Origin: Tilletia caries
Taxonomy: Eukaryota; Basidiomycota; Exobasidiomycetes; Tilletiales; Tilletiaceae
Direction of reading: 5' to 3'
Assembly: GCA_032718865.1 (NCBI GenBank)
Contig: JALUTQ010000003.1
Coordinates: 216,001-280,000, forward strand
DNA: 64,000 nucleotides
A model generated the notes under the pieces. The model was not told the origin of the DNA. It made no database searches and worked only from the letters and a program-made list of their open reading frames with translations. The position numbers and the translations under genes were made by a program. Positions 1 through 59,757 of this stretch are shown piece by piece. Positions within the stretch are counted from its first letter, which is position 1. Every line of letters begins with the position of its first letter.

Positions 1-325
1 CTGACTCTTCCATCCTCATCATTGGTGCCATTGCTTTCGGAATCAGTGATTTCAGTGATACTTTCCAGCTTGATCCCTGCGTGCATATAAGGACGTCAGC
101 GACCCAAATCATTCTTCACCTGGCCGCCGCGGTCTGCCTCACTGCACTCTGCATCCCTGCCTTCGGGATCTGAGGGACGGCGGGCCCGGCGGATCATTCT
201 CGGGTCTCAGCTGGCCAGACCTATTTAGGTCTCTTACTATGCACGTGTATCTTTGGATCCACGTTTTCCTTTCTCTATCAATGAGTCTACTCAGAACGTC
301 GCACCGCACGGAGCAAGGCCGAGGG
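1..325 (+). mobile_element. 3' terminal region of a DIRS/Ngaro-like retroelement
   Basis: There is no gene here. From about 155 on, the sequence matches the 3' tail of the DIRS element at the other end of the window (63180-63280): a CCTTCGGGAT stretch, a GGCGGGCC stretch, an AGACC...GGTCT hairpin (217-232) and then ATGCACGTGTATC. The last 141 bp (185-325) recur identically at 7586-7726. I read this as the noncoding 3' end of an element whose body lies left of the window. Confidence 0.5.
185..325 (+). repeat. 141-bp direct repeat, left copy (possible B1 of a split repeat)
   Basis: Identical base for base to 7586-7726. Without the hAT element 566-7412 the two copies would be about 400 bp apart. 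That spacing suits the B1-A2-B2 terminus of Ngaro-type elements, with 326-565 plus 7421-7585 as A2. The A2 role is inferred, because the matching A1 would lie outside the window. Confidence 0.7.
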
Positions 326-557
326 TGTCGCGTCAGATGAGATGGAATCGCTGTCGCTCGGCCTCGGCTGCAGTGAGGACGTGACGCGTAATGCCAAGAC
401 ACATGGCACCGCGTCGCGTCGGGATCGGGAGTGGAAAATCTTCTCATAAGTCGGCCCGACGCGCGTCGGTGCCTCTGACGGACGACCACATCATCAGTCG
501 TCCTCACTCACGTCCTCACTGCTATCCTCTCATAGGTGCGCAGTTGAGTAGTTCATT

Positions 558-565
558 GATTCAAT
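558..565 (+). repeat. Target site duplication GATTCAAT, left copy
   Basis: Identical to 7413-7420. The two copies directly abut the CAGTGCTT termini of the hAT element. Confidence 0.9.
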
Positions 566-1227
566 CAGTGCTTTTCAAAGGTCATATGACCTCTATTTTG
601 AGGCCTGGTCATATGACATGACTCCTATTTGAATTTCGCTCCGGACCCTGGTCATATGACATGACTCCTATTATAGGTCATATCGGGTCATATTCACCAA
701 ATCGCCTGGAAAACGCTGTTTTACGCTCGAAATCCTCCCTTGTCGGCCTGTGCAAGTCCTTCAGAGCAACCAAAGTCCATTCAAACGAGAAAAATTTCGT
801 CAAAAAGGCCTTACGGCGTCATCGACGGTGTTTCGGAGGTTGAGCAGTGATTAGGATTGATCTTTCCGGTGCGGTGATTATATAAGCACGTCTTTGACGC
901 GTCGTAACGCGCCTGACGCGTCGATTAGCAGCGTGACCTTTGGAACCGACGTGTTTTCACCTCATCTTCCACTCTTCAACTTCATCTGACATCTCCTCAG
1001 TCCTCCGCCGCACTCATCTAATCCGTCGCTTTCAAGACGCACACGACGCCCACTCCCTGTCTGGCAATTTCCCTACGCGCATCGCGCTAGCAGCCTGTGT
1101 CCGTGAGTAGCTACTCGAAGCCGCTACCCTGGCCAACCTGTTACTGACTCAGTTACTCTCTTCCTTCACAGCAGCAGAACCAGGTTGCAATTTGCAGCCA
1201 CCCACCTTCCTCGTTTCGTTCGTCGTC

Positions 1228-4200
1228 ATGACCGAGTCCGTAAGCGCCATGAACCAGGAAGCCGTGCGCGCGGCCATGCAGGCTGAATTGGATGGCGTCG
1301 ACGCCATCGCTCGATTCCGGTTCGACGACGAGTTCAACATCTACTCTTTCGGTCAAGCAATCGACGCCATTCCCAATGCATCGCCGGGGCTGACGGCGTC
1401 TCTGCGCAAGGTTGCATACGCATTCGATGAGCCGGACACCCACGCCGAGGCTTTTCAATCCACACCATCGCTCTCGTTCCCACAGTCTCAAGAACGGTAC
1501 AAGGCACTTCAGGAGCGGCTCAACTACGACGAGTACCTACAATTTACATCGAGCCAGTCACAGCAGATTGGTACGCAAGCAGAATCCCAGTCGCAGTCGA
1601 CAACACAAGCTGCGTCGACGCCATCTGCTTTCCGCGCTCCTCCCTGCGCTCAACCTTCCAAGCTACAGATCCCGAATCGCGAACCTGAAGCACCCAATCC
1701 CAGACGATCTCCTCGCGGCGTCACCCAGTCTCGTCGTCTCTCGGGATACGCTGTTGGAGAAGAGTCAGAGGAGCGTAGTCGCGGCACCCATCGTTCACCA
1801 GTACCAGGCTCGTCCTCGAAGCCCCAAGGCCAAAAAGGTTCCGCGTCCTCCACCAAGATGCTCTCACTGTCGAGCAGCGACTCTGAGGCGGCGCAAAGCG
1901 AGAAAGAAGACTTCGACTCAGGCCGCCCTCGGCCTCGCCCACGACGCGCTCGTCCGGCCTCCAAGAGGTCCGACTTTGTCGTTCCGGACAGCGACTCTGA
2001 GGAATCGGATGTGCCTGTTACCGGATCCAAGCGAACCTCGGGTCCAGTCCATGAAGATGCTCGCGAGCCAGTTTCCAAGAAGGCCGACATCGGCTCTTCC
2101 AAGAACACGTCCCGACAGCCTCCTGTCCCGCCTACACGTCAAGAGCGCGAGCAGCATGACGCTGCGGCCAAGATGAACGCCCCTTCGAAGAGGACACGCA
2201 CTGAGTCCGCTCAATCGGGTGTAGTCACCATCGAGGACGACGATGATGATGACACACCCCGCGCTGGGAGAGTGTTCAACGGGAAGAACGCTCACAAGCG
2301 CTTCATGGAGAACGACATCGCCATCTCCGCTGCCGCCAAGAACAGCATTATCGGCGCTGTGCAAGACTCGGATGCCTACGATGGCTACAAATACCTCAGC
2401 AGCGAATGGACGGACGGTACGAAGACGTGCGTGAAGGAAAAGTGGTGGTGCCTCGTCTGCAAGTCCTCCAAGACGGCATCGAAGGCTGGCAAGCCCACGA
2501 ATCTTCGGACGCACCGAAAACTTTGTCCCATTCCTCCGGAGGGTATTGCCGACGAGGAAGAGATGGGAGAGGCCAATCCGGATTTGGAAAAGCGTCGATT
2601 CAAGCTCAAATGCAAGCCAGCCTCTTTTGCCGCTTCTACCACCCTGGTCGGCAACTCCTACCACGGACCTAGCCTTCACGGATGGCTGAATGGGCAGCAG
2701 CCCATGCACGTAAAGCTGACGCGACGCCTCGGATTGGTCATGGTAATCCAGAACGCCCTTCCCTTTCAACATCTCGCCTCCCAAGCCATGCGCAAAATGG
2801 TCAAGTCCATCGACGCAAAGGCGACGCTTGCGCTCATGTCTGGCGCCACCATCCGACGCGACCTTGCCGTCTTCCACGGCAATCTGGAGTCGGACATGAA
2901 GAAACGGCTGCAAGGTATCGACACACTCTTTTCCGTACAGCACGACGCATGGACGACCAAGGGCTTCCAGTATTCATTCGTAGCCATGCTGGCAACAAAC
3001 GTCGATCGAGACTGGGAGTTCAGCGAGACGCTACTGTCCTTCGATGTCCTCAAGGAGAAGCACACGGGAGCCACGTTCAGTGGGCACTTGACGAGGACTC
3101 TACTAGCCAACGACCTCGGTGACAAGTGGGCTGGATCCGTTACCAGCGATTCCACCGGTACCAACCACAGGATGATGGACGTGCTGGAGTACGCTCCCGA
3201 GCTCGACAAACTCCAACCGAAGGGACGTGGACAAGTCACGCTGGATCGCAAGTCGGCTGCTCAAGTGAAGGCATCGGTCTCAGCTCTGCCTCGCGCCAGT
3301 ATGCGCCAGTCGTTCCAGTGGAAGGCAAACGAGAACAAGATTCTATGCATGAACCACCACATCAACTTAGCAGTGCGAGCGGGCTTTGCGAGCCTGGGCG
3401 TGGCGATCAAGACCAAGACGCAGCGGAAGGTTCTCGACATCAATCCGATCCCGGCCATCGTGGTCCAAGACGAGGAGGGTCGCACTGTGGAGGTCGACTT
3501 CGAACGGTGGTGCCCTGACGACCCACCGCTCTCGGAGGCACCGGCATCTAAGGCGGTCTCTCTTGGAGCGGCTCCTCTCCCTGCTTCGGAAGGAGGAGGG
3601 AAGGGAAAAGCACGAGCAATCGACCCCGAAGTGGACGAGGGTGTCGACCTCGACACTTCATCTGCCTCCATTGTCGATGCCGCGGCCAATCTGGCAGACT
3701 CACAGCCCGAGCCAGACAGCAAAGACGATGCATCGGATGAAGACGAGAGCCCAGGCGACGATGAAGACGACTATGAATCCTCGGGCGAAGAGGACATGGG
3801 TCCAGAGGCAGGCGAGCTGCTCTCCGACGACGGCGGCGGCCCAGAGGTAGATGGGCCCTCCAAGACGCGGATCTCCAAGACCAAGGTCAACGCCGTCACC
3901 AAGCTGGAGGCGTTCACGACGTCTATCCACAGAGGCAGTGAAAGGAGGGACGACTTTCGCACCACCATGGCCAAGAAGTACCACAGGAGGCCCAAGCTGG
4001 CCAAAGCGCCCTTTCCCCCGAAGCCAAATGCTACACGCTGGAACTCCCACTTCCGGATGATCAGGGCGGCGCTCAAGAATCGCGAGGCGATTGACTCCCA
4101 CTGTCGCGCCAATATCGGAAAGAAGAGCGACAAGCTGGGCTCCTACCTGCTCACCGAATCGGAATGGACGATGTTGGAGTTTCTGATGCCGATCCTAGAG

Positions 4201-5022
4201 CTGGCATCGGAGGCAACCAAGGAGCTCGAGAAGGCTCGTGGAACGCTATACATGGTCCTCGATCACCACGCCAGTCTCCGTGACAAGATCAAGGCCACCG
4301 TCGCCGAACTGGACACGGCAGATCTCGGAAAGGAGACGACGGAATCGCTGAAGTCCTTCTTGGCGGCCATGAGCTCAAAGCTCTTGAAGTATCGCACCCT
4401 TGCGCTTCACAATCGATACACGCTCGTCGCAGCGTTGCTGGATCCCGCCAATCGTATGGAGCTCTTCGAATTGGCCTACCCAACGTATGGAAAGGAAGCT
4501 GAGAAGGCGCTGCGGGACATCATGAGCGAATGGCTAGGGCAGGGTCAAGGAAACAATCAGCTGGCTTCCACGGCTTCCATGACAAACGGAGCGGGAACCT
4601 CAACTACGATGCTATAAGAAGCCAAACGACTTCGACAGCAACAGCTTGCGGAGGAAAGACGCAAGAAGACGGACACCGATTCCGATGAGGTGGCACGGTA
4701 TCTCAACATCAAGAACTGTCCTTGGCGAGACTCCGACGAAACACCGTACAAGTGGTGGCGCGACAACGAGAACGTCTTCCCCAATATTGCAAAGATTGCT
4801 CGAGTAATTCTTGGTATCCCAGGAAGTTCATCCTCCGTCGAACGGGTCTTCTCGCAGGCAGCGCTCTTCAGCACCAGCAAGCGCCAAAGCCTGTCTTCGA
4901 AGGCGCTCTCGGAACTGGTCTCGACCAAACACTGGCTCATCCACGGCGCGGACGAGCTCTCTGGACTTCCTGCCGAGGTCAAGCAGATTGCGGAGACGAT
5001 AAACAAGCTACCGGACCTTTGA
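1228..5022 (+). CDS. hAT-family transposase (one in-frame TAA, possibly intronic)
   Basis: Large nuclear DNA transposase. The first ATG of the open frame is 1228. Residues 1-400 are low-complexity, acidic/basic and Ser-rich. A BED-type zinc finger (WWCLVC...NLRTHRKLC) falls near residues 405-435. The catalytic region has SVTSDSTGTN, and the hAT C-x-x-H box reads CMNHHINL near residue 706. The C-terminal hATC dimerisation domain (from WWRDNENVFPNIAKIA through SSSSVERVFS to TKHWL) lies at 4750-4960. A TAA at 4615-4617 interrupts the frame, but the frame continues and includes hATC. A 75-nt intron (GT 4544 to AG 4618, frame-neutral) would remove the stop, although its donor GTCAAG is weak. So this is either a spliced gene or a one-mutation pseudogene. 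Total about 1,265 codons. Confidence 0.88.
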
Positions 5023-5245
5023 GAGAGCTCGGATTCACTGCTGTCCATTCGAACGAGACTTCTGCTAGCAAGCAATCAATCTTTCAAATAGCTTTTAGAT
5101 TGTATCATGATCTCAAAGAACTTCTGGATAGCGGAGGATGAGCACGAGAGCATGTTGAAGATGGAAAGGTCACTGGATTTCTTGATAAGATGGAGGCTGG
5201 AGACTTGAAGGAAACATATCGGAGCACTACCCCTCGTCGGTGGTC

Positions 5246-7019
5246 TCATCGAATTGACGCGTTACTGCGAGGAAGCGTGGGATTGATTCGGTTTGGACGA
5301 GGGTCGGTGGTGAAGAGACTGTGAGGGAAAAAAGTCGCCAGGTGAGGGCGACGATTTGGCTGAAGACAAAGCATCTTCTCGATGATGTCTGCCGCATCCC
5401 CGTCCACGTCCTCAAATATAGCCGATGCCTGAGATTCGAACGGCCTCCAGTCCATGGTTAAGTCGAACGCAGACGGCGGAAACCGAGCTCGTGCAAATAC
5501 GGGTCCTCCTGCATGGCCGGTGAATTGCAGTATGTCTTCCACGGAGCTGGCCGCATCGTACGAGTTGGTGAAGAGGGGCCGGCCAAGAAAGAGATGCGCG
5601 ATTACGCAGCCCGTCGACCAGACGTCGACTTGAAACGTGGGCTTGATGGATCCGAGGAGGCATTCCGGAGCCGTATATCCGAGAGTGCCGTACGTGCGCG
5701 CGTCTTGATTCTGTCCGGCGAGCGCAGAGATGCCGAAGTCCCCGACCTTGATCGTAAAGTCTCGAGTCAGCATGAGGTTGGCGGGCTTGATGTCGAGATG
5801 AATGACCTCCTTGCGGTGGATGAAAGAGACCGCGACCAGAAGCTGCAGCGTCAAGTTCTTCGCCAGACTCGTCTCCAGTTCGCGGCCGTTTGCCTGGTCA
5901 AAAAGATCTTGCAGCGTACCCCAGTAAAGTGGCATGATGATGTCCACCTTGTGTGTTGTATAGCACACATCGAGGAGCTGGGTGATGCCTTTGTGGCCCT
6001 GCAGAGGCGTCAGGGCCTCGACCTCGAAGAGCAAAAAGCGCGGTGGCTCGTTGAGGAACCGAATGCGCTTGCGCGCGCACACCGTGCGGCCGAGAAGGAC
6101 GTCCACAACTCGAGCAAGCTCGACACTGCCGCCACGAGATATCAGCGGAGCGTGGCGGACGCGCACGTAGCGCCCTGGAGGTCGCCATGTAGCCGGGGCG
6201 ATCCAAGCGGAGTCCGATGTGGGTTCGGGTTCGGTCTTGACGGCATCCGGACGTGTTGGTGAAGGAGGTGGTGCTGAAGGAGACGAGGCCTCGCTGGGAC
6301 GAAAGGGCGACAGCGACAACTGGGCAAGCCGACTTGACCCATTGCTGAAGGAGATGTCATCTGTGAAGAGGAAGTTCAAGGAGTAAGGACGTGGTAAGCT
6401 AATCTTTGAGACTTCAGGGTCGCAACGCGCCACAAAACGATAACAAACTGACCTGAAGGAGGCGCGACGTGGATGGCGCTGCTCGCTTGAGGGTCCAGAG
6501 GGTGACCAGAGCTTAGGTCACCGGTCGACGTCGGGCTGGAGATGAGAGTGCGCCCTTCGAGGAGGTTGGCAGACGAGAGTGCTGGTTCTGAAGAGGGAAA
6601 CTTGACCGTTAAAGGATAGTTCTGGGATCTGGGTGCAAATGGGCGCGCTGCAGTTCACTCACCAGCAGAATGAGACGCACGCTGAACAGGCGCATGGCGA
6701 CGATCAGGAGCCTGGATTGAGCTGTGGAACACTTGCAGGGCACGACCTTCTGAGCTTGAGGATGATGAAAAGCAAAAGAAGCTGACAACTGTCAGATAGT
6801 AGCTTCGGAAGGCCTGATAGGTGCCTGGTGCACATTCTGCAATCACTCACCAGTCCCAATGTCGCGACCATGAACGCGTCGTGGGAGCAAGGGGCAGTTG
6901 TTGGAGGCGCGGGCGCGGGTGATGCTGCTGGAGGCGCGGGCGCGAGTGGTGCTGCTGGGTAAGACGTAGGGAAGAGAAGAAGGCGTGCGCCGCTTGCTAC
7001 GCGACATGTTGGGAGCCAT
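5246..7019 (-). CDS. Eukaryotic protein kinase carried inside the hAT element
   Basis: The kinase domain lies in one exon (about 6300-5246). In order it shows an ATP-lysine candidate (VCARKRI), an alpha-C glutamate (FEVEAL), the catalytic loop HLDIKPANLML, a canonical DFG (VGDFGIS), a YTAPE site and VDVWSTGC. The usual HRD is HLD. The GTLGYTAPE and VDVWSTGC spacing recalls CDC7/CDK-like kinases, but I do not assign a subfamily. A basic Ser/Arg-rich N-terminal exon probably starts at ATG 7019 and ends at a GTGAGT donor at 6851. Small exons between 6850 and 6434 are likely but not resolved, so the 5' model is approximate. Both transposon ends lie outside this gene, so it is cargo. All core catalytic motifs are present, which suggests selection or recent capture. 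Confidence 0.75.
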
Positions 7020-7412
7020 CTTAGAGATCCCGAGCTTCGGAGCGTTTTTCCTGTATCGGGAGGGGATGCGGGAGACACGGAAGGTGTCAAAATGCTTAAT
7101 TTTATACTGAAAACGCCGCCACTCAACGCCCGCGCCAGGTCGAAAATTAGAGCTCAAGTCATAATTGGGTCATATTTCAGAGTCTTATTATGACAATAGG
7201 AATCTTAATAGGACCAATCAAAATATGACAGGGACACGGTCATAATCTTGGTCATAATGTCATATTATGACTGGCTCGCCCGGAATCTGGTCATATGACA
7301 TGACCTCCCTGGCCACTCCTATTACCGTTATATGACTTATGACTTTATGACTCCTATTTAGGTCATATGACCTGTAGGACTCCTCCCGGTCATAATATCC
7401 TGGCAAGCACTG

Positions 7413-7585
7413 GATTCAATCCCTTTCTTTCGCCCATTGATTTCCCGCCCACCCTGCTTCAGGATTGGGATTGAGGTAGTTTTGGTTTGTTGCGTGAGGC
7501 AACGTTTTGGAACGGCGTTGGATTGCGCCTCATCTTTCAGCATCATGTTTTTCAGCCAGCTGCTGTCCCACCCAACCGTCCCCTT
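7413..7585. other. TSD and remainder of the interval between the 141-bp repeats
   Basis: TSD GATTCAAT (7413-7420) is followed by non-repeated DNA without a supportable ORF. With 326-565 it forms the ~400-bp spacer into which the hAT element inserted (putative A2). Confidence 0.5.
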
Positions 7586-7726
7586 CCCGGCGGATCATTC
7601 TCGGGTCTCAGCTGGCCAGACCTATTTAGGTCTCTTACTATGCACGTGTATCTTTGGATCCACGTTTTCCTTTCTCTATCAATGAGTCTACTCAGAACGT
7701 CGCACCGCACGGAGCAAGGCCGAGGG
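7586..7726 (+). repeat. 141-bp direct repeat, right copy (possible B2)
   Basis: Identical to 185-325, including the AGACCTA/TAGGTCT hairpin and ATGCACGTGTATC. It abuts GGGCAGGTTCATATCGG. The same junction motif starts the third membrane-protein block at 19479 without any DIRS tail, so the retroelement end sits exactly at the border of the duplicated gene block. Confidence 0.8.
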
Positions 7727-8019
7727 GCAGGTTCATATCGGTTCAGGTTGAAAACGTAGATGACATTGAGACGACCTGGAAGAAAAGACGTGACATTACG
7801 TTCCGTATCAGGAGGTATGAAACCAAAGATACTTGTGTTCTGTCTCGCCCGGCTCTTGTTTGCTTTAGCCTGGAAAAAAGGAGTGTTTCGTTAAGGCATG
7901 TATCGAAAAGATGCAATGCTCTGTTGCGTCTTGCTCGGATGTGATCTGCTTTGGGCTCTTTTTCCACTCTGCACCTCCCGGGGTACGAGAGGGCCTTGCT
8001 TCGCTCTTTCAGCGAAAGG

Positions 8020-11000
8020 TCAGGACGCGCCACGGTTGTCCCGGTTTTCCCGCCGCCGGAGCTCTCCATGGAGGTTCAGGACAGGACAAACCGCATAGCT
8101 GACCAGCTCCTTCGCCACCCGTTTCTCGACATCGTTCAGCGATATTGTGCCCCCTACGACCAGCGTCTGCCTATCTACCGACCGAGGAGGATGAGGATGA
8201 TTCCGCTGTGCTGTCTGCTCGATGTCAGCTTGGCCCGCACCGCCGCTGCTTGTTGTTGCGCTGAGACGAGAAGAATCGTGAGGAGGGTGGTGGAAGGATG
8301 CGAAGAATCGCGCGGGATTCTTGCGATCCGGAGTCGTAGAAGGTGAAGACTCGTCGAACAATGCGTCTTCGACAGGGAGGCCGCCGATGCGCAAAGATCT
8401 GTACACTGTGAGCCAGCTGATGAAGGAGAAGATCAAAAGTTCAGAAGTCCCACCCCAATGCTACGTAAATGTACAAGAGGAAGTGAAGACAGGAAGAAAA
8501 CGTACCTGATTGGGCTCGTAGTTCGTCTTCGTAGACCAGAAGGCAGGCGCGGGACCAAGAGGACGCCCAGCAGACAGCAACCGATGACGACGCCAACAAC
8601 GATGTTCACTGGTCCAGATGCGGGTAGAAAAAGGAGGAGGACAATCTAACGTCAGCTTCTGGTCAGATGGTAAAGTGCTATCGGAAGGTCATACGCACGC
8701 ATATGAACGACGCAAGATGCGCGGGCAATCTGTATCAAATCATAGCTGCGAGCTTCGACCTTGCCACTTCCCACAAGGTATGGCAGGATTAGAAAAGAAC
8801 TGAGGATTGAGGAAGCAGCAGATCGTCAGCAGGAAGGGTAGGCGGAAAACGAAGGAATGGAACGCACTCAACATTCGCAAGCATATCCGCCAACCGCAGC
8901 GGATCCAGAACCCCGTAGCCCGTCGGCCCACCTCCAGCACCGCTGGACACGCTCATCAGCGTGGGATTGGGGACCCACGAATGATCCCGGCCGTTGTCCT
9001 TGATCAGAGCATTTCGTGCACTTTCGTGCGCTAGGATGTACGCTGCGTACTTGCCCTTGGAGCTCAGATTGCTCGTCGTTACAGCAGAGGCTAGCGAGGA
9101 GCGGCGCTGACCGTCATCTAGGGTCAGATCATCCGCTTGGCGAACGATGGACGCGCTTCGAACGCCTGACACCCAACAAATAAGTACAGAGGTATAAATC
9201 AGCACAAGTCATTGTAGGTAAAAGTGGCACTGTTCCTTCAGCACTCACTGTTCAGCCCTTGATCGACCTCCACTACGTAAGGGTCAAGCCGCTCGACACA
9301 TACGGCGATGTCGAAGCCGATGTTCCCGAACCTGCCCTCCTGGTCAGACACATTTGCAACCATGCCGAACTGAGCGCCAGGACCTGCCAGTGTCTGATTC
9401 AGCTGTGGGTCATCAAAGTCTAAAGCGTTTAGCATTCGATGGTATTGCCACTGCGCGCGTTCAATAGATGGAGACTATACTCACGCGGATCAGGATGACC
9501 TCCAGCGACACCCACCCTCGCCCCGCGCTCCCAGGGCTGTACCTGGACGACGCTTCATCCAGCAGGACCTCCTCATCTGACCTTATCGGCTGGGACCAGA
9601 AGGCCTGTGCAACTCCATCCGCTGCGAAGAATTTGGCCACTGCGACATCAGCTGCCTTCAAGCCTGCAGGCAGGACATTGTGGAGATCGCCGTAGGTCGT
9701 GCTCAGATTCGCCGGCTTCTTGTAGCTGGATGGTAAGGAGACGTTAAGTGTCGAAAGCACTGAGCCGAGTACCTCGTGGGTCAGAAAGAAGACGGCCTTG
9801 CGGTCATCGACGGATGCATTTGCGGATTGAGATATGTCTGGCACCAAGTAACGGCTGAGATTTTCAAGGCGTTGACAATGGGTCTGGGAAAGAGAAGACC
9901 ATCATCAGCTTCAGCTAGGGCCAGCGATGACCAAGGTCTCTCGACGGTAATGAAACTATTCACCCGGATTCCCCATCGAGGCCACCTCACGTTTCGTCGC
10001 AGGGGAACCTCGGTTCCGTCATTGAGAATGAGAGTTGTCGACTGATCGCCATTCTTCGACTTATCAGAATCGTCTTGCGCTTGCATGGTCTCGTTCTTTG
10101 ATGCGGTATGCGTGTCGCTGGTGAAAGTGCCGTAGCCCTCATAGTTGGCCATGAAGTGGTCGTGGAGAACTTCGGTGAAGTACACGTATTGGTCTCGTTG
10201 ATCTGGCAAGGGCAGCTTGACGGTCGAAGGGCGGTCGATTGGAGACGTGGACTGCAGAGTCCAGGAGCGGATGTAATCGTCGTAGAAAGGCTGTAAGGCT
10301 TCGGCTGCGGAGATATCTGCACCCGTGAGATCACCTGCAACAGACAGGGCATCGAAGTGCTGGTACTGAATATCAAATTTGGGACGAGATGATTCTGTGA
10401 GCCAGTAAATCTTTGTTGCCAGCTCGTTGAAGAACAACCTACCTGAGGCTGGAGCTGGGCGCGAATGTCGATGGTACCTGTTGATTGTTCACCATTGTTA
10501 GTCACTGTTTCCAGCTCCCAAGGATCCACATGACTCACGGTCTGAGACGAAGCCGAAGGCAAGCGCGAGGAATAAAAGACCCAAAGCGGCTATGATCTCA
10601 GGGATACCCCGAGTTGCCTTGTAGAAGCGTGACATCCGTCCGAGAATACCTGCCCGGTCGCTCTGATCAGCGCGTCGATCTGCACCAGCGAGGCGGCTGG
10701 CACCGGCCCGCAGTCGCAGAAAGAGCAAACGAAAACTAGAAAGCATCCCAATATTATCTGCGATCGCATCGAGGTCGCCCATTGTCATGTCTTCCTCCAG
10801 GATGACGGCCGTCCAGATTGCCGAGTGGACGATGCGGTGTGCGATGTTATGGATAGGCACGCAGACGATGGCACCTGCGACACTGTTGGTTGCAGTGACG
10901 ATGGCACGTGCCCAGTAGAGATCCATGTCGACGTTGTTGGTGATAGCAGAGGGGACGATCCGGATGAGAGCATATGCTATGGAACAGTGAATGAGGAGGA

Positions 11001-32622: not shown

Positions 32623-33272
32623 CAGTGTTGAACAACATACTATAGTATACTGTTTTCAGGGGCTCGGGTAGTATACTCCATACTACCTTTGGTCGTCGGG
32701 AGGGCGAAGGTAGTATATAGGATAGGATAGTATGGTAGTATTTCCTATAATACTACTATACTCCAAGGCCAAAAATGAAAAGGGGGTAGCAATATAGTAT
32801 TATTATGTTACTACTATAGTATGCGCAAATTTTTCATCATACTATAGTAGTATTGTAATACTTAAATACTTCTTTCTCAAACGCAATCCAGGCAAAAATA
32901 ATATACTATAGTAGTACTATAGTAATAGTATATGCATACTATAGTCCTACCATGTATGATGTACTATCGTAGAAGTATAGTATAATTGGCAGGTAGTATA
33001 GTATACTGATGAGTATATGTATACTATAGTACTAATTTGTACTATCGTAGGAGTATAGTACAATTTGCAGGGAGTATAGCATACTATAGATATACTATAG
33101 TACTTTGAGACGACGTGCTCGGGGTCTCGGACCAAAATTGGTACTATAGTATACGATAACCTCCGCCAGATTTTGAAATAGTATATAGTATGTTTTCCAA
33201 AAAAATCTCCCGGGACCCGATAGTATATAGTATGTAGGAATACTCCATACTCCAATAGTATGTTCAACACTG
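32623..33272. mobile_element. hAT-type MITE (650 bp) built of ATAGTATACTATAGT palindromes
   Basis: TIR CAGTGTTGAACA on the left and its inverse (TGTTCAACACTG) on the right. Perfect 8-bp target duplication GTCAAAAC (32615-32622; 33273-33280). The interior is almost wholly ATAGTA/TACTAT subterminal repeats and has no ORF. Confidence 0.9.
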
Positions 33273-36559: not shown

Positions 36560-38061
<1,502 letters not shown>

Positions 38062-45903: not shown

Positions 45904-46359
45904 CAGTGGTCGGCGTGACTATGTGACTTTTAGACTTACTACCTGACTTAAAGTCAAAGTCTAGACTTTTTTGTGACTTTGACTTTGTGACTTATAATGT
46001 GACTTAGACTTAGACTTTTTTTTGGTCGGCGCAGACTTAAAGTCCAAAAAGTCTACTAAGTCTCGACCGAAAATCACCTTTAAAACTGACCTACCACGGC
46101 CAAACATGAATCTGTCATCTGCAAATGGCCATGGATAATCATTTTCGACATCTACGAGCGATACGTGGTGTTTAAATTTCGCGTGAAAATAAGTCGTCAA
46201 TAAGTCGCTTAGTCCGACTAAAGTCAGACTGTAAGTCTTCAGAATGACTTCAGTCAGGACTTATGTCAGACTTTATGTCACATTTAGTCCTTTATCAGAC
46301 TTTAAGTCTGACAATAAGTCAGTAAGTCGCATTACAGATGTAAGAGTGGCAGTGCATTG

Positions 46360-47160
46360 CTACGTGTTTCTACTAAGCAGGAGGCTTCTCATCACTGTGA
46401 TGCTCGGGAAACAAGGGTAGGGGGGGTCCGCATCTTTCCTGTCGAGGCCATAGAATCGATCATTCAAGACCTGATCCATAGTTGGTCGCCGATCCGGATC
46501 CAGAACCAGCACGAATCCCAGAAAGCGGATGAGTCCCGCATAATTGAAGGTGTGCAAGGCAAGACGTTCTGCCAAAGAGCTTGAAGTGGTACTGCCGTCG
46601 GAGTTGAAGAATCGATGTTTACCCCGCCAGAGAGACTTGTACAGCATCTGATCGTCCGGTAAAGCGCCAGGAAAAGAGTCCGAGCCTGGCCAGAGTTCCA
46701 CGCCCATCCGTCCCAGATCTCTCACCTGTTGACACAACAGTTTGTCCGGGCGCCCCGCGTACCAGAGCGGCTGACCATTCGGTTGGAGCATCTGAAGTCC
46801 GACAACCGCACGTCGCCGTCTAGCGAAATCAGTATATTTGAAGGCTTGACGTCGAAATGAGCGACGTTGCACTGGTAGGGGAATGTAATACATCTGTCAT
46901 TGAAAGTTCTTGAATAGCAATGTTATCTGGAGTCCAATTGCTTCACACTTACCTGATGAACCGCCCGCAATCCAGACGCCAGTTGTTTAGCTATACCACA
47001 CACCACTCTTGGAGTTAGCCTTCTGCGCTGACCCTCCTCGTTGAGAACTTGCTGCAGATCGGTGCTGCAGTAGTCCATCACCAGATGGAGCTCGGGGCGG
47101 TCGTTAAACTGCAGAACAAGGACGGCCTCGTCCTTTTTCTTTGGTCGTTGCAGCCACCTT
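46360..47160 (-). pseudogene. Broken protein-kinase-like gene inside the second hAT element
   Basis: From upstream: a hinge-like ELHLVMDYCSTDLQQVL and the helix LASGLRAVHQ to a donor at 46952. Exon 46871 onward has the catalytic loop HFDVKPSNILI and the metal motif as DFR in place of DFG. After that the frame changes and a DLGRMGVELW...SFPGALPDDQ block reads on to 46360. No N-lobe with an ATP lysine was found. It is a decayed CDK/CDC7-like kinase, or at best a pseudokinase. It is the second kinase sequence within a hAT-type element in this window. Confidence 0.65.
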
Positions 47161-48420
47161 GGACTTGGCCTTGGACTTCTTCTTGGACTTGGCCGCCTGA
47201 CCCTTCTTGCCCTGCTTGCGCCGCCGTGAGGTCGGGGAGCTGCTCGGACCTTCCTCGTCGCTTTCCTCTTCGGAAGCTCCGGAAGAGGACATGCTGCTGT
47301 GCTGGTCTTCCTCCACCTGGAACTCATCAATGTCGGATTCATCATCGATCTCGACTACTTCAACTTCTGCTTCGGACTCCGACTCGTCGCTTTCCGGAGC
47401 CCGGCGGCGCATCGCTGCGGTTTTTTCCCGCCGCTCAAGGGCGGACATCGGAGTGGGCTTTTTCGGCTTCTTCGCGGCGCCCTTCTTGGACTTCGACGCT
47501 GAAGTGCTCGCCGCTCCTTTCTTGCTGGAAGTGGAGGCACTGGGGGCCTTGGAGCTGGATGCCGCTCCTTTTTTGCTGGAAGTGGAGGCTCTGGGGGCCT
47601 TGGAGCTGGATGCCATGTCCTTGCCGGGGCCTTTGCTCGGAGGGGCAGTTGGATCGTCGGTTTCGTACTCGTAGTCCGAAAGATGTGACGGAACCGAGCG
47701 CCTGCGCGCGGACTGGCGACCGGCGGCGGCAACTCGTGCAGCGGACCGATCAAAGAAGTCGTCGAGGACTTCCTGTGTCTGTATGGAGATGCGATCCAGG
47801 AGATGCGATCCAAGGGGGTCAGAGAGACCGAAGCAATGCATGAAACGACAGCGGCAGATAGAGCGACTCACCGGTGCTCGTGTTGTGACGGATGCGGAGG
47901 TAGCCTGCAGCGACCGTGCCGTGGGACGCTTGGAAGGTCCGAGAGCGGCGGAAACATTCGTGGAAGTCGGAGCGGAGCTGCGAACGGCAGCTTGGCCAGT
48001 GGATTGCTGAGATGCGTGCTTGCCTTCGACGAGCGCTTTCCACGTGTGGGCCGTCGGGTCGTTGATGAGCTCTTCCCAGCACAGACGCGTTGTCGGATCC
48101 TGGACTGTGGGCTGGATTACGTGTGACAAAGGAGTTAGAACGACGTACTGCTGGGAGCGGAGGAGGGGAAGGGTGTGTCTGCTCACGAGTCGCTTGAGGA
48201 TTTCGCCCGGGACCTGCGGGGATTCGGGGTCGTCCCGGTTCAGGGACTGCTGACATTCTTGTGAGAATTCCGACCATCGCTGGCTCTGGTTCGGAGGAAG
48301 GCCAAGCTCTTCTAACTGCAGCTGGAAGGGACCAACTCCGAGATCTCCAAAGGTGTGCTGTCCGAAGATGTCCAAAATGACGGGGTCTGTTTCCCTTGGG
48401 TCGGGTTGAGAGCCCGACAT
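47104..48420 (-). CDS. Ser/Lys/acid-rich hypothetical ORF inside the second hAT element
   Basis: 438 codons from ATG 48420 (MSGSQPDPRETDPVILDIFG), possibly with a small intron near 47850-47780. The N-terminal third looks globular (LQLEELGLPPNQSQRWSEF). The rest is low complexity: tandem SSKAP-STSSKKGAAS repeats from an internal DNA duplication (47500-47610), a highly acidic stretch, then Lys-rich runs that look like nuclear localisation signals. The 3' end overlaps the start of the kinase-like frame, and one frame change would fuse the two. Function unknown. Confidence 0.5.
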   Translation of the reverse strand: MSGSQPDPRETDPVILDIFGQHTFGDLGVGPFQLQLEELGLPPNQSQRWSEFSQECQQSLNRDDPESPQVPGEILKRLVSRHTLPLLRSQQYVVLTPLSHVIQPTVQDPTTRLCWEELINDPTAHTWKALVEGKHASQQSTGQAAVRSSAPTSTNVSAALGPSKRPTARSLQATSASVTTRAPVSRSICRCRFMHCFGLSDPLGSHLLDRISIQTQEVLDDFFDRSAARVAAAGRQSARRRSVPSHLSDYEYETDDPTAPPSKGPGKDMASSSKAPRASTSSKKGAASSSKAPSASTSSKKGAASTSASKSKKGAAKKPKKPTPMSALERREKTAAMRRRAPESDESESEAEVEVVEIDDESDIDEFQVEEDQHSSMSSSGASEEESDEEGPSSSPTSRRRKQGKKGQAAKSKKKSKAKSKVAATTKEKGRGRPCSAV

Positions 48421-49119
48421 CGGTGGTCGTTGAGGGGTGAGTGGGGCTGTGGGAAGAAAGGGATAGTGGTGGAAGGGTGCACGGGAAGAGGGAAGTGACT
48501 GGTTGCTGGTGAGGAAGATGATGGGGCTGCCTATTCAGGAGCTGCTGGAACCGGCGTGAGAAGCAGACGTGTGAAAAAAACGACCTTGTGACTTAGACTT
48601 TTTACCGTTGAAAGTCACATGATCGGAGACTTGGGGAACTTAAAGTCTGGAAAAGGTCAGGTGACCGTGGGACTTTGAGAAATGAGACTTTCAGTCGTGA
48701 CTGTAAGTCTGACTTTTTTGACTTTAAGTCGGAACATTAGATCATCCGGGATATGTGACTTTTGCTACGACTTTGAGTCTGACTTTAAGTCGGAAAGTCT
48801 CTGCTTCTCGCTCGAGAAACGATGTGACTTAAGTCAGACTTGGCAACTTAAGTCCGACTTAGACTTGACTTTCTGAAAATTTCTAAAATGTGACTTAGAC
48901 TTAGACTTGACTTTTTGAAAAAAATGGCGACTTAAAGTCAGTGCCGACCACTGTGCCCTCCCCGTCTGCTGCCTTCCCCTTTTCTGATTCTCCCTTTTTC
49001 TTCTTCTCTCCCTTGTTCACGCCCACGGGTGTGCGTGGGATGAGCTGGCGCGGGTGGGTTAGCAGGCCAAGCGAACGGTTCACATCCCTCTCCTCAGTCC
49101 CGCTGTCATGTGCCCCATC

Positions 49120-54263: not shown

Positions 54264-54612
54264 TCAGGAAATGCTTGAGGAGGGGGGGGGGATTTTGAAA
54301 CGCGGCAGCTGTGGTCCAGGAAGGACTTCGCCCCTCGAAAGGGCATCCGCTGGGTTTTTCGCCGACTCAATGTACCGCACGTCCAGCCTGGACACTTCTT
54401 GCCGCTCCTTGTCCAGGACTCTCTTCAGCACCGTGTTGGCTTGCTTGCCAAAGCTCCGCCCCTTCTTGTAGGCGCCAATGACCCCGTGGTTGTCCGACCA
54501 AAAGCGGATCAGAGACCGCGACGCACCGCACGCCAACGCAGCCAGGAAACCTAGCTCCAACGCAACCGCTTTAGCCCAGCCGATGTGCCTACCGTCCGTC
54601 TGCCACCAACTA
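54264..54612 (-). pseudogene. DIRS RNase H fragment (element B)
   Basis: WAKAVALELGFLAAL, FWSDNHGVIGAYKKGRS and ESAKNPADALSRG match the RNase H C-terminal half of element C. The RT and the start of RNase H are missing: similarity stops at a MITE fragment (54613). Confidence 0.8.
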
Positions 54613-54916
54613 TCATGTGAATTCACAGCTCCGTCGGAATTCCGCGGAAATTCCGCCGGAATTGTCACATCATTTTGACGGCTCCGTGCTCCGCGTAAAT
54701 TCCGGCGGAGTCCTCCAGGCGGACTCCGTGCTTTTTTAAGATCAAAAATGTCTCAAAAGTGGGTTCCGCGGTCCGCCTCCGGCGGAGCCCTCCGTCGGAG
54801 GAGTGCGGAGTCCGCAAAACCCCAGCTCCGCGTCAACTCCGGGGACAACCTTAATCTCAAAATCAGCCGGAGTCGGCCGGAGTAGAGGCCCCGGAGTACC
54901 TCCGCGCTCATCCTTA
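54613..54916. mobile_element. Fragment of the CTCCG-rich MITE family
   Basis: Matches one terminal ~300 bp of the element at 55693-57216 in inverted orientation, including the end CGCTCATCCTTA. The other end is missing. Confidence 0.75.
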
Positions 54917-57900
54917 GATCAACGCGCCCGCCCAGAGGTCCAGTCGCTGGGAATTGAAACAGGGTGAGCAGCTGAGCTTTGAGAGAGAAAGAGCATTTAG
55001 TGAACCTGTGAACTCATTACTCACCTCGCGAGGATGCCGGTAGGACATGTTGTCGCTTAGCACGCCCAACCTGATCAGAGTGGTGAGATCGGCGAGCTGG
55101 GCGGTGCTCTTAACCTTGCTGTCCAGCAGGTCGTATCGCTCCTGGAGGTATCCGATCCCTGTGTTCACCTCGTTTCGAATTTCCATCGGCACCACCACAC
55201 CGGTGAGACGACGGCAGCCTCTGTGCCCGCATCGTCGTTTTCCTGCTCGTGGTTGCTGCTGATGAGATCCTGAAGGAAGGTGACGTTGGAAAGAGCCGCT
55301 GTCACAGCAGAGTGCTGCTTGAGCAGTTGGCGGCATTGAGCTTTGGCTCTGCCGGCCTCGCGCCGAATAGAAGCGCACTTCCGGATCCATATAAGGTAGA
55401 GGCGCTGGCGTTCGGCACCCGATGCCGCTTTGAAAGCTGCTTCCATCTCCTTCAAGATGGGCGCCTTTCCCTCCGCCTCTGTGACCTCCTTCGGCGTCAG
55501 AGGCTCCCAGGGCGCCGTCAGCATTGCCGGTGCTGAATTCCACTCCTTTCTCTCTCCTGCAAAGAGGATGATCCCCTGCACGTCCACGTCTGAAGACCTG
55601 GACAAATATGCTCGCTGTAGATTGTCAATCGAATTAGGTCAGCTACCAGACTCTGTCTCTGTCTATGCACTCTGGAAAACGTACGAATCGGGTAAGGATG
55701 GGCGCGGAGGTACTCCGGGGCCCCTACTCCGGCTGACTCCGGCTGATTTTGAGATTAAGGTTGTCCCTGGAGTTGACGCGGAGCTGGGGTTTTGCGGACT
55801 CCGCACTCCTCCGACGGAGGGCTCCGCCGGAGGCGGACCGCGGAACCCACTTTTGAGACATTTTTGATCTTAAAAAAGCACGGAGTCCGCCTGGAGGACT
55901 CCGCCGAAATTTACGCGGAGCACGGAGCCCACTCCTGGGCCCACTGCCCAAAAGTGCGGAGCACGGAGCCGTCAAAATGATGTGACAATTCCGGCGGAAT
56001 TTCCGCGGAATTCCGACGGAGCTGTGAGGTCGCAATCACATGACAGTCGAAAATAGGGGTCACGTGACCTCATTTTGGGTGCGCTCCGCCGGAATTCCGC
56101 AAACGATGCGCGGAAATGTGCGGAATTCCGAGAAAACAGTCATCGTCGAGACCCGCTCAGGGGATCAGACAGGCACCATCATCCGTTGAGAGCTTCAAAA
56201 TAGCACTGGAGTCAATACCGCAACAATGTCGGACGGTGAACTTATAGCTCTGATTGTATTAGAGTCATTCTGAGGGCAACTTATACCACCACTGCGCTCC
56301 GACGGGATTCCGCGCTCCGCATACACGGAGCACGGAGGAGCATTATGAAAACGCACAGAAAAAATGCGGAGCGCGGAGCTGGGATTTCAACTTTTGTATA
56401 ATTCCGTCGGAACGCGGAGCTGGTTTTTTTCAGCTCTGTCTTAGTCTGCGGAGGCGGAGCTCGCCTCAAAAAGTCAAAATTCCGGCGGAATTTGGAAGTG
56501 CGGAGGCGGAGCCCTCCGCGTTACTCCGGGGACAACCTTATTTGAGATGCTTTTTCACGCTCCGTACTCCGCTCATTTTCAGGCAGTCGCCCCAACTCCA
56601 CTCCGCGCTCCGCACAGAATCTCCCCATCTCATTGCGCCAGCTCCGTACTCCGGCTAAATTTAGTAAAATTTTAAAGTCCACTCCGTACTCCGGGGTGAC
56701 GGAGCGCGACTACTCCCCCGAAACTCCGTGCTCCGGGGAAAGTTCGCAGAGGTCCTACAAAACTTGAGAAATGTGGACCCTTTCATTGATTGCCGCTCTT
56801 CCAACCATGTTTTTGTTCGACAGAATCATCGTTGGCGGTCGTAGAGCTCAAAAACACAAAATATGAACCCCAAATGAGAAATCTGAAAAAGAATTCTGCC
56901 AAATTTTTGAAAACCAGAGCAGAATATGCCCATTTCGGACTGAAATGTTCAAAATTGCGACCTGATTTTGAACAAGGCAAGGCCCCGGAGCGCCCCGGAG
57001 TTTCGGGGAAACTCCGCACTCCGTCTGGCATTCGAGCTAGTCACTCCGTACTCCGGGGACATGACAGGCTTGCGCTCCGCACTCCTGCAGAATTCAATCA
57101 GCAGGAGCAAATCCTCGAAAATGCACTCCGTACTCCGTACTCCCCCGGAGTGAGGCCCCGACTAGTTGGGGAACTCCGGGAAACCTACTCCGGGGCTTAC
57201 TCCGCGCCCATCCTTAGAATCGGGTGCTAGTGCCGAGCTTGTGCCCGACGACAAGGTGGGCGCTCTCTGACGTGACGTCGGTGCGGTTGGTCGCACTGAC
57301 CACCATTCTTCGTAGAGTGTAAAAGACCATCTCCTGGTCTGTAGTAGTGGAATTCAGTTGATAGAGGTCAGTCTACACACTGCATCTACACAGGTCGAGC
57401 GCTGCACACTTACCATTGAAATCGGCACAGTGAGCAGCGGCCCGTCGGAGCCTGTTCGCCCGGTCGTATGTCAGGCCGCGTGTGGCGGAGACGACATAAC
57501 TCCTTGATCCTGAAGCCTGCCTAACCGCACGGAACAAACACGTTTCGGAGTATTCGGAGCGGAGGGGCAGCTCGAGCTGCCCGTCCTCCAAGGTGGCGAG
57601 GTGTGCTGGAGAAAGGTTCAGCAGGTCGTCTTGGGTGTCGATCCCAACGAAGGCTTGATCCTCAAGCAGAATTTTGAGGATTGGCACTGTCGGGTCCAGG
57701 CCCGGAGCAGCATCTGGATGAGAATACAGGACGCTTCGACGAAACTTCGAGGCGTCCTTCCGCATACCCCTTCAGCAGACGGAACGTGACTACGATCTTG
57801 AAGGTAAGTCGTCCGTTCTTGGCTAGGGCGACGACGCGAAGGTCCTTTCCCTTGATCGCATCGTTGTCTTTTGCATAAACGTCAGAGACGAAGACCTCGC

Positions 57901-58197
57901 TGGGGCGAGCAGCTGTAAACCTTGAGGCTTCAGGACATCTTGATCGCGTCCTGGAAGTCCCTTCTTGGCGAAGTAGCGGTTGACGAAACCGCGGAGCAAA
58001 TTCTCGGCGCCTTCGTGGAGGCGCTCTGTGGAGGTTGCGAGCTTCTTGGTTGGTTTGTGGGTATCGAGCTCTGTACTGAGCTCGTCAAGCCCATCGAAGA
58101 ATCTGTCCATCTCGGCGCTGGACGCAACCTGTGCTGTGGATTTGCCAATGCCAGGGCCGGCCGGGGGACGCAGGGCGTCGTCCACGTAAATTATCAT
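54917..58197 (-). pseudogene. DUF3435-type tyrosine recombinase gene, interrupted by a MITE
   Basis: Minus-strand exons, start MIIYVDDALRPPAG at 58197. Then LRVVALAKNGRLTFKIVV..., a 55-nt intron, PTVPILKILLEDQAFVGIDTQDDLL, LELPLRSEY...CLFRAVRQ and GLTYDRANRL. After an intron (57412-57365) comes FYTLRRMVVSATNR (Y-x-x-R), then VVGHKLGTSTRF. A 70-nt intron (55684-55615) follows, then RAYLSRSSDVDVQGI. This order and the R/Y-x-x-R/Y pattern recall fungal DUF3435 recombinases (Crypton and Starship captain relatives). The MITE 55693-57216 sits 8 bp before the exon end. The start of the catalytic region (near 57900) is also shifted in frame, so the gene is probably dead. Confidence 0.65.
55693..57216. 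mobile_element. CTCCG-rich non-autonomous DNA transposon (1,524 bp)
   Basis: TIR TAAGGATGGGCGCGGAG and its inverse, with perfect 8-bp target duplication GAATCGGG (55685-55692; 57217-57224). The interior is packed with CTCCG/CGGAG and CCGGAATT motifs in both orientations and has no convincing ORF. The 8-bp duplication suggests hAT mobilisation, although TIRs starting TAAGG differ from the CAGTG ends elsewhere. Confidence 0.9.
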
Positions 58198-58289
58198 CAA
58201 TGCTACTGACAAGAGCGGAGAGATGATGCGGGTGAGGATCGTAGTGATGGTGATGGTAAGGTGATGGTGATATAGGCGCATAAATGCAC

Positions 58290-59757
58290 TAAGGATGGGC
58301 GCGGAGTAAGCCCCGGAGTAGGTTTCCCGGAGTTCCCCAACTAGTCGGGGCCTCACTCCGGGGGAGTACGGAGTACGGAGTGCATTTTCGAGGATTTGCT
58401 CCTGCTGATTGAATTCTGCAGGAGTGCGGAGCGCAAGCCTGTCATGTCCCCGGAGTACGGAGTGACTAGCTCGAATGCCAGACGGAGTGCGGAGTTTCCC
58501 CGAAACTCCGGGGCGCTCCGGGGCCTTGCCTTGTTCAAAATCAGGTCGCAATTTTTGAACATTTCAGTCCGAAATGGGCATATTCTGCTCTGGTTTTCAA
58601 AAATTTGGCAGAATTCTTTTTCAGATTTCTCATTTGGGGTTCATATTTTTGTGTTTTTTTGAGCTCTACGACCGCCAACGATGATTCTGTCGAACAAAAA
58701 AAACATGGTTGGAAGAGCGGCAATCAATGAAAGGGTCCACATTTCTCAAGTTTTGTAGGACCTCTGCGAACTTTCCCCGGAGCACGGAGTTTCGGGGGAG
58801 TAGTCGCGCTCCGTCACCCCGGAGTACGGAGTGGACTTTAAAATTTTACTAAATTTAGCCGGAGTACGGAGCTGGCGCAATGAGATGGGGAGATTCTGTG
58901 CGGAGCGCGGAGTGGAGTTGGGGCGACTGCCTGAAAATGAGCGGAGTACGGAGCGTGAAAAAGCATCTCAAATAAGGTTGTCCCCGGAGTAACGCGGAGG
59001 GCTCCGCCTCCGCACTTCCAAATTCCGCCGGAATTTTGACTTTTTGAGGCGAGCTCCGCCTCCGCAGACTAAGACAGAGCTGAAAAACCAGCTCCGCGTT
59101 CCGACGGAATTATACAAAAGTTGAAATCCCAGCTCCGCGCTCCGCATTTTTTCTGTGCGTTTTCATAATGCTCCTCCGTGCTCCGTGTATGCGGAGCGCG
59201 GAATCCCGTCGGAGCGCAGTGGTGGTATAAGTTGCCCTCAGAATGACTCTAATACAATCAGAGCTATAAGTTCACCGTCCGACATTGTTGCGGTATTGAC
59301 TCCAGTGCTATTTTGAAGCTCTCAACGGATGATGGTGCCTGTCTGATCCCCTGAGCGGGTCTCGACGATGACTGTTTTCTCGGAATTCCGCACATTTCCG
59401 CGCATCGTTTGCGGAATTCCGGCGGAGCGCACCCAAAATGAGGTCACGTGACCCCTATTTTCGACTATCATGTGACGGTGCGACCTCATAGCTCCGTCGG
59501 AATTCCGCGGAAATTCCGCCGGAATTGTCACATCATTTTGACGGCTCCGTGCTCCGCACTTTTGGCCAGTGGGCCCAGGAGTGGGCTCCGTGCTCCGCGT
59601 AAATTCCGGCGGAGTCCTCCAAGCGGACTCCGTGCTTTTTTAAGATCAAAAATGTCTCAAAAGTGGGTTCCGCGGTCCGCCTCCGGCGGAGCCCTCCATC
59701 GGAGGAGTGCGGAGTCCGCAAAACCCCAGCTCCGCGTCAACTCCGGGGACACTCTTA
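58290..59757. mobile_element. Inverted copy of the CTCCG-rich element (about 1,468 bp)
   Basis: Reverse-complement copy of 55693-57216, starting TAAGGATGGGCGCGGAG at 58290. The far end differs: it stops at GTCAACTCCGGGGACACTCTTA instead of the usual terminus, and no target duplication is seen. The two copies form a large inverted repeat around the first exons of the recombinase gene. Confidence 0.8.

Follow-up and report, generated by a model that had tools for sequence, protein, structure and literature searches.

What is a protein kinase gene doing inside a hAT transposon? The question is raised by an element at positions 566 to 7412 of a 64,000-nucleotide stretch of the Tilletia caries genome (contig JALUTQ010000003.1, positions 216,001 to 280,000; hereafter, the window). 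Members of the hAT superfamily have a transposase with a C-terminal dimerization domain, short terminal inverted repeats (TIRs), 8-bp target site duplications (TSDs), and subterminal repeats, and they normally encode the transposase only. The Tilletia element has all of these traits but differs by a second gene, which encodes a kinase resembling cyclin-dependent kinases (CDKs). Judged from the sequences, such kinases lie beside many diverged transposases, keep their catalytic residues in most copies, are under constraint, and broadly track the transposase tree. We consider it probable that the element belongs to a two-gene hAT lineage in which the CDK-like kinase is a standing second gene that helps the element.

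A hAT element with two genes

The element is 6,847 bp long, and its transposase (+) and kinase (-) genes lie tail to tail inside the TIRs. Its features in the window are as follows.

558..565, no strand: TSD, left copy, GATTCAAT (sequence inspection and TIR/TSD scan)
566..573, + strand: left TIR, CAGTGCTT (TIR/TSD scan; other elements have related termini)
566..865, no strand: left subterminal region with 8 GTCATA-type repeats (repeat count)
1228..5019, + strand: hAT transposase gene (open frames and Pfam), in which an in-frame TAA at 4615-4617 splits 1129 residues from a 134-residue C-terminal part
4690..4938, + strand: hAT C-terminal dimerization domain PF05699 (Dimer_Tnp_hAT), residues 25-107 of the 134-residue frame, behind the stop
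5249..6360, - strand: kinase exon 4, catalytic domain, with the stop codon at 5246-5248 (Pfam and P0004 mapping)
6453..6600, - strand: kinase exon 3 (P0004 mapping on the window; last base read from a split codon)
6663..6754, - strand: kinase exon 2 (P0004 mapping; first base read from a split codon)
6851..7019, - strand: kinase exon 1, beginning MAPNMSRSK; the Tilletia protein P0012 starts alike
6993..7412, no strand: right subterminal region with 16 GTCATA-type repeats (repeat count)
7405..7412, - strand: right TIR, AAGCACTG (TIR/TSD scan)
7413..7420, no strand: TSD, right copy, GATTCAAT (sequence inspection and TIR/TSD scan)

A combined TIR and TSD scan of window positions 1-9000 returned three candidates, and TIRs matching at 8/8 positions were found only for the 566-7412 element, whose two 8-bp TSD copies are identical. 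Short TIRs starting with CAGTG are a hAT trait, and this form is found in CAGTGCTT of the window as well as in CAGTGCTCGGCA and CAGTGCTCACCA of relatives; perfect 8-bp TSDs likewise flank the window element and 6 further elements. Counted on both strands, the first 300 bp hold 8 GTCATA-type repeats and the last 420 bp hold 16, with none in the interior. The TIRs, perfect TSD, hAT transposase, and spliced kinase named in the original prediction were confirmed by the TIR/TSD scan, Pfam, and P0004 mapping. A 141-bp direct repeat, 100% identical, at 185-325 and 7586-7726 flanks the element outside the TSDs, and an Rfam scan of window positions 1-9000 gave no match reaching the gathering score.

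The dimerization domain of the window transposase matches PF05699 with E = 6.2e-16, and an RNase-H-like domain (PF14372) is matched weakly, at E = 3.7e-4, below its cut-off. The in-frame TAA precedes the dimerization domain in the window copy; in the copy at C21:1097347, the frame is open where the window copy has its stop. Three rearranged kinase-hAT copies lie at C21:1097347-1141226 with a spacing of ≈19.85 kb, either as a tandem array or as an assembly effect. An RRSPR...GY motif is present in the N-terminal region of the window transposase (1702-1749), in the other A-type copies, and in several Tilletia indica transposases.

The kinase exons are defined by a T. caries gene model, P0004 (341 residues, end incomplete, 100% identity), which falls on the window in four exact blocks, and summing the four exons gives a predicted protein of ≈507 residues. 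All three introns read as GT..AG from the junctions, although an automated GT..AG test recognized the second alone, the first and third each interrupting a codon. The protein matches Pkinase (PF00069) with E = 1e-37, and the catalytic K, E, D, N, DFG, and APE that characterize eukaryotic protein kinases are present; no alpha-kinase family is among its Pfam matches (PF00069, PF07714, and PF14531 only). Thus, an apparently complete kinase inside a hAT element, as originally predicted, stands with respect to its four exons and catalytic motifs but needs qualifying in that the transposase is interrupted by its TAA, the glycine loop is atypical, and the HRD motif reads HLD.

We counted key residues in 31 rows of transposon kinases, a set that omits two near-identical C21 tandem copies, a dead kinase at 45.9 kb in the window, the kinase at C25:1020348, and proteins P0001-P0018. 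D166, N171, and DFG are kept in 31/31 rows, and the catalytic lysine is kept in 27 of the 28 rows that have a residue at that place. The HRD arginine is absent throughout (31/31), with L, F, C, or G instead, whereas a host CDK row has it; the kinase at C25:1020348 has HCD in that place and keeps its DFG. Non-RD kinases are active without the need for activation-loop phosphorylation, and the absent arginine suggests that the transposon kinases may be similarly independent of it.

Both sequence and predicted fold place the kinase near the CDKs. The best 60 matches of a PDB sequence search are almost all CDKs, and a fold search with an AlphaFold2 model (mean predicted local distance difference test score 65.5, mostly 70-90 in the domain and <50 in the first 100 residues) gave CDK2 as the best match, with mostly CDK2 and otherwise other CDKs among the 50 matches listed. 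CDK2, CDK1, and Pho85 show the best sequence or fold likeness among the PDB matches listed, and by our reading of the alignment, some kinase lineages have a PSTAIRE-like helix. Unlike CDKs, however, the Tilletia kinase lacks the HRD arginine, shares 22-28% identity in the listed fold alignments, carries an N-terminal extension, and is borne by a transposon. Given the missing arginine, we therefore describe it as CDK-like rather than as a CDK.

Pairing and constraint across the genome

The searched genome comprises 38.1 Mb in 40 contigs. A PF05699 profile search gave 74 matches, and a PF00069 search gave 154, of which 150 rows were entered and grouped into 113 loci. A kinase locus lies within 4 kb of 35 of the 74 PF05699 matches and is tail to tail in 33, against ≈1.8 expected by chance in any orientation, although the paired loci include near-copies and are therefore not 33 independent cases. 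C24 and C33:750371 also have a tail-side kinase match, but only in a separate kinase search. On the strength of the pairing count, we rejected chance capture. The association therefore holds for a subset of hAT elements in this genome: among the 20 hAT matches of at least 77 bits, no tail-to-tail kinase lies within 4 kb; one of these 20, C40:1829709, adjoins another element's kinase.

A transposase search, which scored 41 of 122 candidates and so gives a lower bound, found at least 30 loci (grouped by hand), 25 of them with a tail-side kinase match. Among the five loci without one, C40:1392964 is cut before the dimerization domain, the C13 locus is internally deleted, and the C10 locus is an N-terminal part only; the other two, C40:1548884 and C30:718771, are partial transposase matches. 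Searching by the 5' end of the element rather than by its kinase gave, apart from the window itself, five near matches, namely two C21 copies with the kinase, the internally deleted C13 copy, and shorter pieces in C30 and C39.

The TIR/TSD scan covered 37 stretches (the window, two sub-stretches, and 34 others), many of them partial. Seven full-length elements have matching TIRs and perfect 8-bp TSDs, and both genes lie inside 7/7, but because the stretches were mostly picked by kinase match, this count speaks to the location of the kinase inside elements and not to its frequency.

Window 566-7412
C40:1780097-1789243
C21:45854-52390
C27:899382-905844
C4:1036310-1042676
C40:285981-292368
C5:2026424-2032765

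In addition, eight copies of 585-610 bp (20 loci scanned, some overlapping) contain neither gene, end in the same termini as C40:1780097, and are flanked by perfect TSDs (L039, L042, L043, L044, L046, L047, L050, and L051), which points to mobility of the C40:1780097 subfamily. The expectation that other copies would also carry the kinase therefore holds for 25 of at least 30 loci, but gene-less short copies exist, and C30:718771 is a possible kinase-less copy.

To quantify selection, the ratio of nonsynonymous to synonymous change (omega) was computed by NG86, and pooled pairs were filtered by local identity to remove misaligned windows. For distant kinases, omega is 0.08-0.22 where computable (window vs C34, C40_285, and C40_1829; C27 vs C4_1035 and C35), with values of 0.09 (0.06-0.14) for window vs C34, 0.10 (0.07-0.16) for C27 vs C4_1035, and 0.22 (0.15-0.32) for window vs C40_1829. 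Nine recent pairs, pooled without C33_778/C1_1310, which lacks a transposase pair, have 58 nonsynonymous changes of 122 in the kinase against 92 expected (omega 0.29) and 177 of 297 in the transposase against 226 expected (omega 0.46). On the whole, both genes are under constraint, which is no weaker for the kinase than for the transposase. The original prediction had proposed that the kinase may be a standing passenger and not a single capture, and the 33 tail-to-tail pairs against ≈1.8 expected, together with the pooled kinase omega, support this. That the kinase is not decaying neutrally follows from the pooled and distant values but not from C33_778 vs C1_1310, at 0.93.

Exchange between elements and the wider setting

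The main groups are common to the kinase and transposase trees, and the tree distances of the two genes correlate, with r of 0.74 using the outer kinase of lineage E (chosen after the tree was seen), 0.60 using its inner kinase, 0.75 without lineage E, and 0.56 for eight deep rows. Against this broad agreement, kinase genes have been exchanged between element lineages. Between the window element and C40:1780097, dS is 0.11 for the kinase vs 2.5 for the transposase, and sliding identity is 0.61-0.79 up to position 4,999, 0.88-0.98 in windows ending at 5,149-7,099, and 0.69-0.76 across the final 300 bp. High identity is thus confined to ≈5,000-7,100, which suggests that just the kinase gene moved, as a gene-sized cassette. 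In C35, a chimera (L067/L006) is C27-like in its left half (98.3%) and C34-like in its right half (98.2%), with the junction between the two genes at ≈425351-425355; its right TIR was not found in the TIR/TSD scan. In lineage E, an A-F-type kinase adjoins an I-like transposase, and a second, I-like kinase lies further out, separated from the first by TIR-like sequence and repeats.

Close relatives come from the same genus. The 18 closest of 25 kinase relatives found (P0001-P0018) are all from Tilletia, the other seven being weak, and the transposase relatives (at least 15 found) are all from Tilletia. A profile search with the deep transposases, its reach limited to shared words, found at least one protein, from T. 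laevis. In T. indica, the kinase CF319_g7414 and transposase CF319_g7415 have neighboring locus tags, and each has a longest listed contig of 12,068 bases; for CF319_g6725 and CF319_g6727, which are two tags apart, the figure is 16,784 bases in both.

Elsewhere in the window, the following features were recorded.

32623-33272: candidate short hAT-type element, 650 bp, TIR CAGTGTTGAACA, TSD GTCAAAAC
36560-38061: MAP (mitogen-activated protein)-kinase gene with introns (sequence)
45904..48953, no strand: second hAT-type element, non-autonomous, TIR CAGTGGTCGGC, TSD TGCCCTCC (TIR/TSD scan)
54600-59600: several long complementary ends in the TIR scan, suggesting large inverted repeats

The original prediction also pointed to a second hAT-type element with kinase sequence. 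Such an element does exist at 45904-48953, but its kinase is decayed and of another lineage (H to Q and DFG to DFR), and the element has no transposase-profile match. The gene at 36560-38061, which we take to be a host MAP kinase, was rejected as a second kinase-bearing element, being a host MAP kinase by sequence with no enclosing hAT element found.

Explanations and precedents

Several results weigh against a kinase kept for the benefit of the element. The 45.9-kb kinase is dead, and the transposase is open but the kinase broken in C15 and C21:45854. C30:718771, where a dimerization-domain match is nearby and no kinase lies within 4 kb, may be a real kinase-less copy, and lineage H is placed differently in the two trees. 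On the side of selection, four deep kinase pairs are saturated and give no omega, while other deep omegas are near synonymous saturation; C33_778 vs C1_1310 is near neutral (0.58-1.39 around its 0.93, 213 codons), and C40_285 vs C34 and C25_972 vs C40_1829 give 1.00 and 0.89 from very few changes. The difference between kinase and transposase in pooled omega is weak (p = 0.03, or p = 0.09 against catalytic plus C-terminal columns), and S/T-P sites show no overall enrichment within transposase residues 1-450. The near-copies among the paired loci and the choice of scanned stretches by kinase match belong with these points.

One chance capture, or an accidental position of host kinases beside transposons, could draw on the decayed copies and on the abundance of kinases in the genome (113 loci), but we regard it as extremely improbable given the excess of tail-to-tail pairs, the kinase within TIRs and TSDs in all seven full-length elements, and a pooled omega well below 1. 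Whether related hAT lineages captured CMGC kinases several times, rather than once in an ancestor, is a separate matter. For several captures, host CDK and MAP kinase fall in an unresolved fork with the transposon kinases, and lineage H conflicts between the trees; the common tail-to-tail position, the HRD arginine absent throughout, and the broad tree agreement speak against them and leave multiple captures as a minority view. The kinase might instead serve the host, the transposon spreading an enzyme useful or addictive to the fungus that host selection then keeps. In line with this, constraint on the kinase equals or exceeds that on the transposase; the window, C40:1780097, and the C40:1829 region each combine an open kinase frame with a broken transposase; and C22 vs C40_618 shows 11 synonymous and 1 nonsynonymous changes in the kinase against 3.8 and 10.2 in the transposase. 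We find host benefit unlikely, however, because many diverged kinase copies stand beside transposases, some of them decayed, because the reverse case of an open transposase with a broken kinase exists, and because linkage kept across deep transposase divergence better fits benefit to the element.

If the kinase helps the element, it could act specifically on its own transposase, turning transposition on or off. Tail-to-tail linkage, the broad agreement of the trees, and the RRSPR-type site of A-type and several T. indica transposases are consistent with this idea, which we hold only tentatively. No match to that site came from the searched B, C, and D frames (first exons not all included), the lack of general S/T-P enrichment gives no support to heavy transposase phosphorylation, and kinases have passed between elements with 63-68% transposase identity, which argues against a tightly matched pair. 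Returning to the kinase as a standing second gene, we propose that it would be active and work in trans for the benefit of the element by phosphorylating a target that many lineages share. Since the elements that swapped kinases have rather dissimilar transposases, a partner-specific site would be a less likely target than a conserved transposase region or a host factor of the cell cycle, DNA repair, or silencing. One possible form of this scheme, more speculative than the two-gene lineage itself, is a hAT lineage that evolved a constitutively active CDK mimic, steering the host (cell-cycle stage, repair, or silencing proteins) in trans towards transposition, with the kinase as a swappable module circulating among diverged elements.

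Accessory genes have precedents in fungal transposons. TET/JBP genes occur in several, hAT7 included (PMC12730594), and an alpha-kinase gene lies opposite the transposase in all of the TET+ IS3EU families of rust fungi in Kojima 2025 (PMC12730594). Like the Tilletia element, TET+ IS3EU is a DNA transposon of fungi whose kinase gene runs opposite to the transposase, but it pairs an IS3EU transposase with an alpha-kinase in Pucciniales, whereas the Tilletia element pairs a hAT transposase with a CDK-like eukaryotic protein kinase (PMC12730594). TET+ hAT7 of Puccinia is similarly a hAT element, and its accessory gene is of a type that moves from one transposon lineage to another, but it carries a dioxygenase and has a 7-bp TSD, in place of a kinase and an 8-bp TSD (PMC12730594). 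The word 'kinase' occurs 0 times in the main text of a Tilletia genomics paper (PMC9172201), and no report of a hAT-borne protein kinase is among the matches listed from the open-access literature, Repbase being outside that scope. Relative to these sources, accessory TET/JBP and alpha-kinase genes in fungal transposons are already known, and a CDK-like kinase in a hAT lineage appears to be new.

Elements of the hAT type are usually thought to need a transposase alone. A conserved, exchanged second gene for a signaling enzyme points to a cut-and-paste element that actively manipulates its transposase or its host. Seen alongside the TET/JBP and alpha-kinase precedents, it suggests repeated recruitment of regulatory enzymes by fungal DNA transposons, and the finding makes the role of such recruited enzymes testable.

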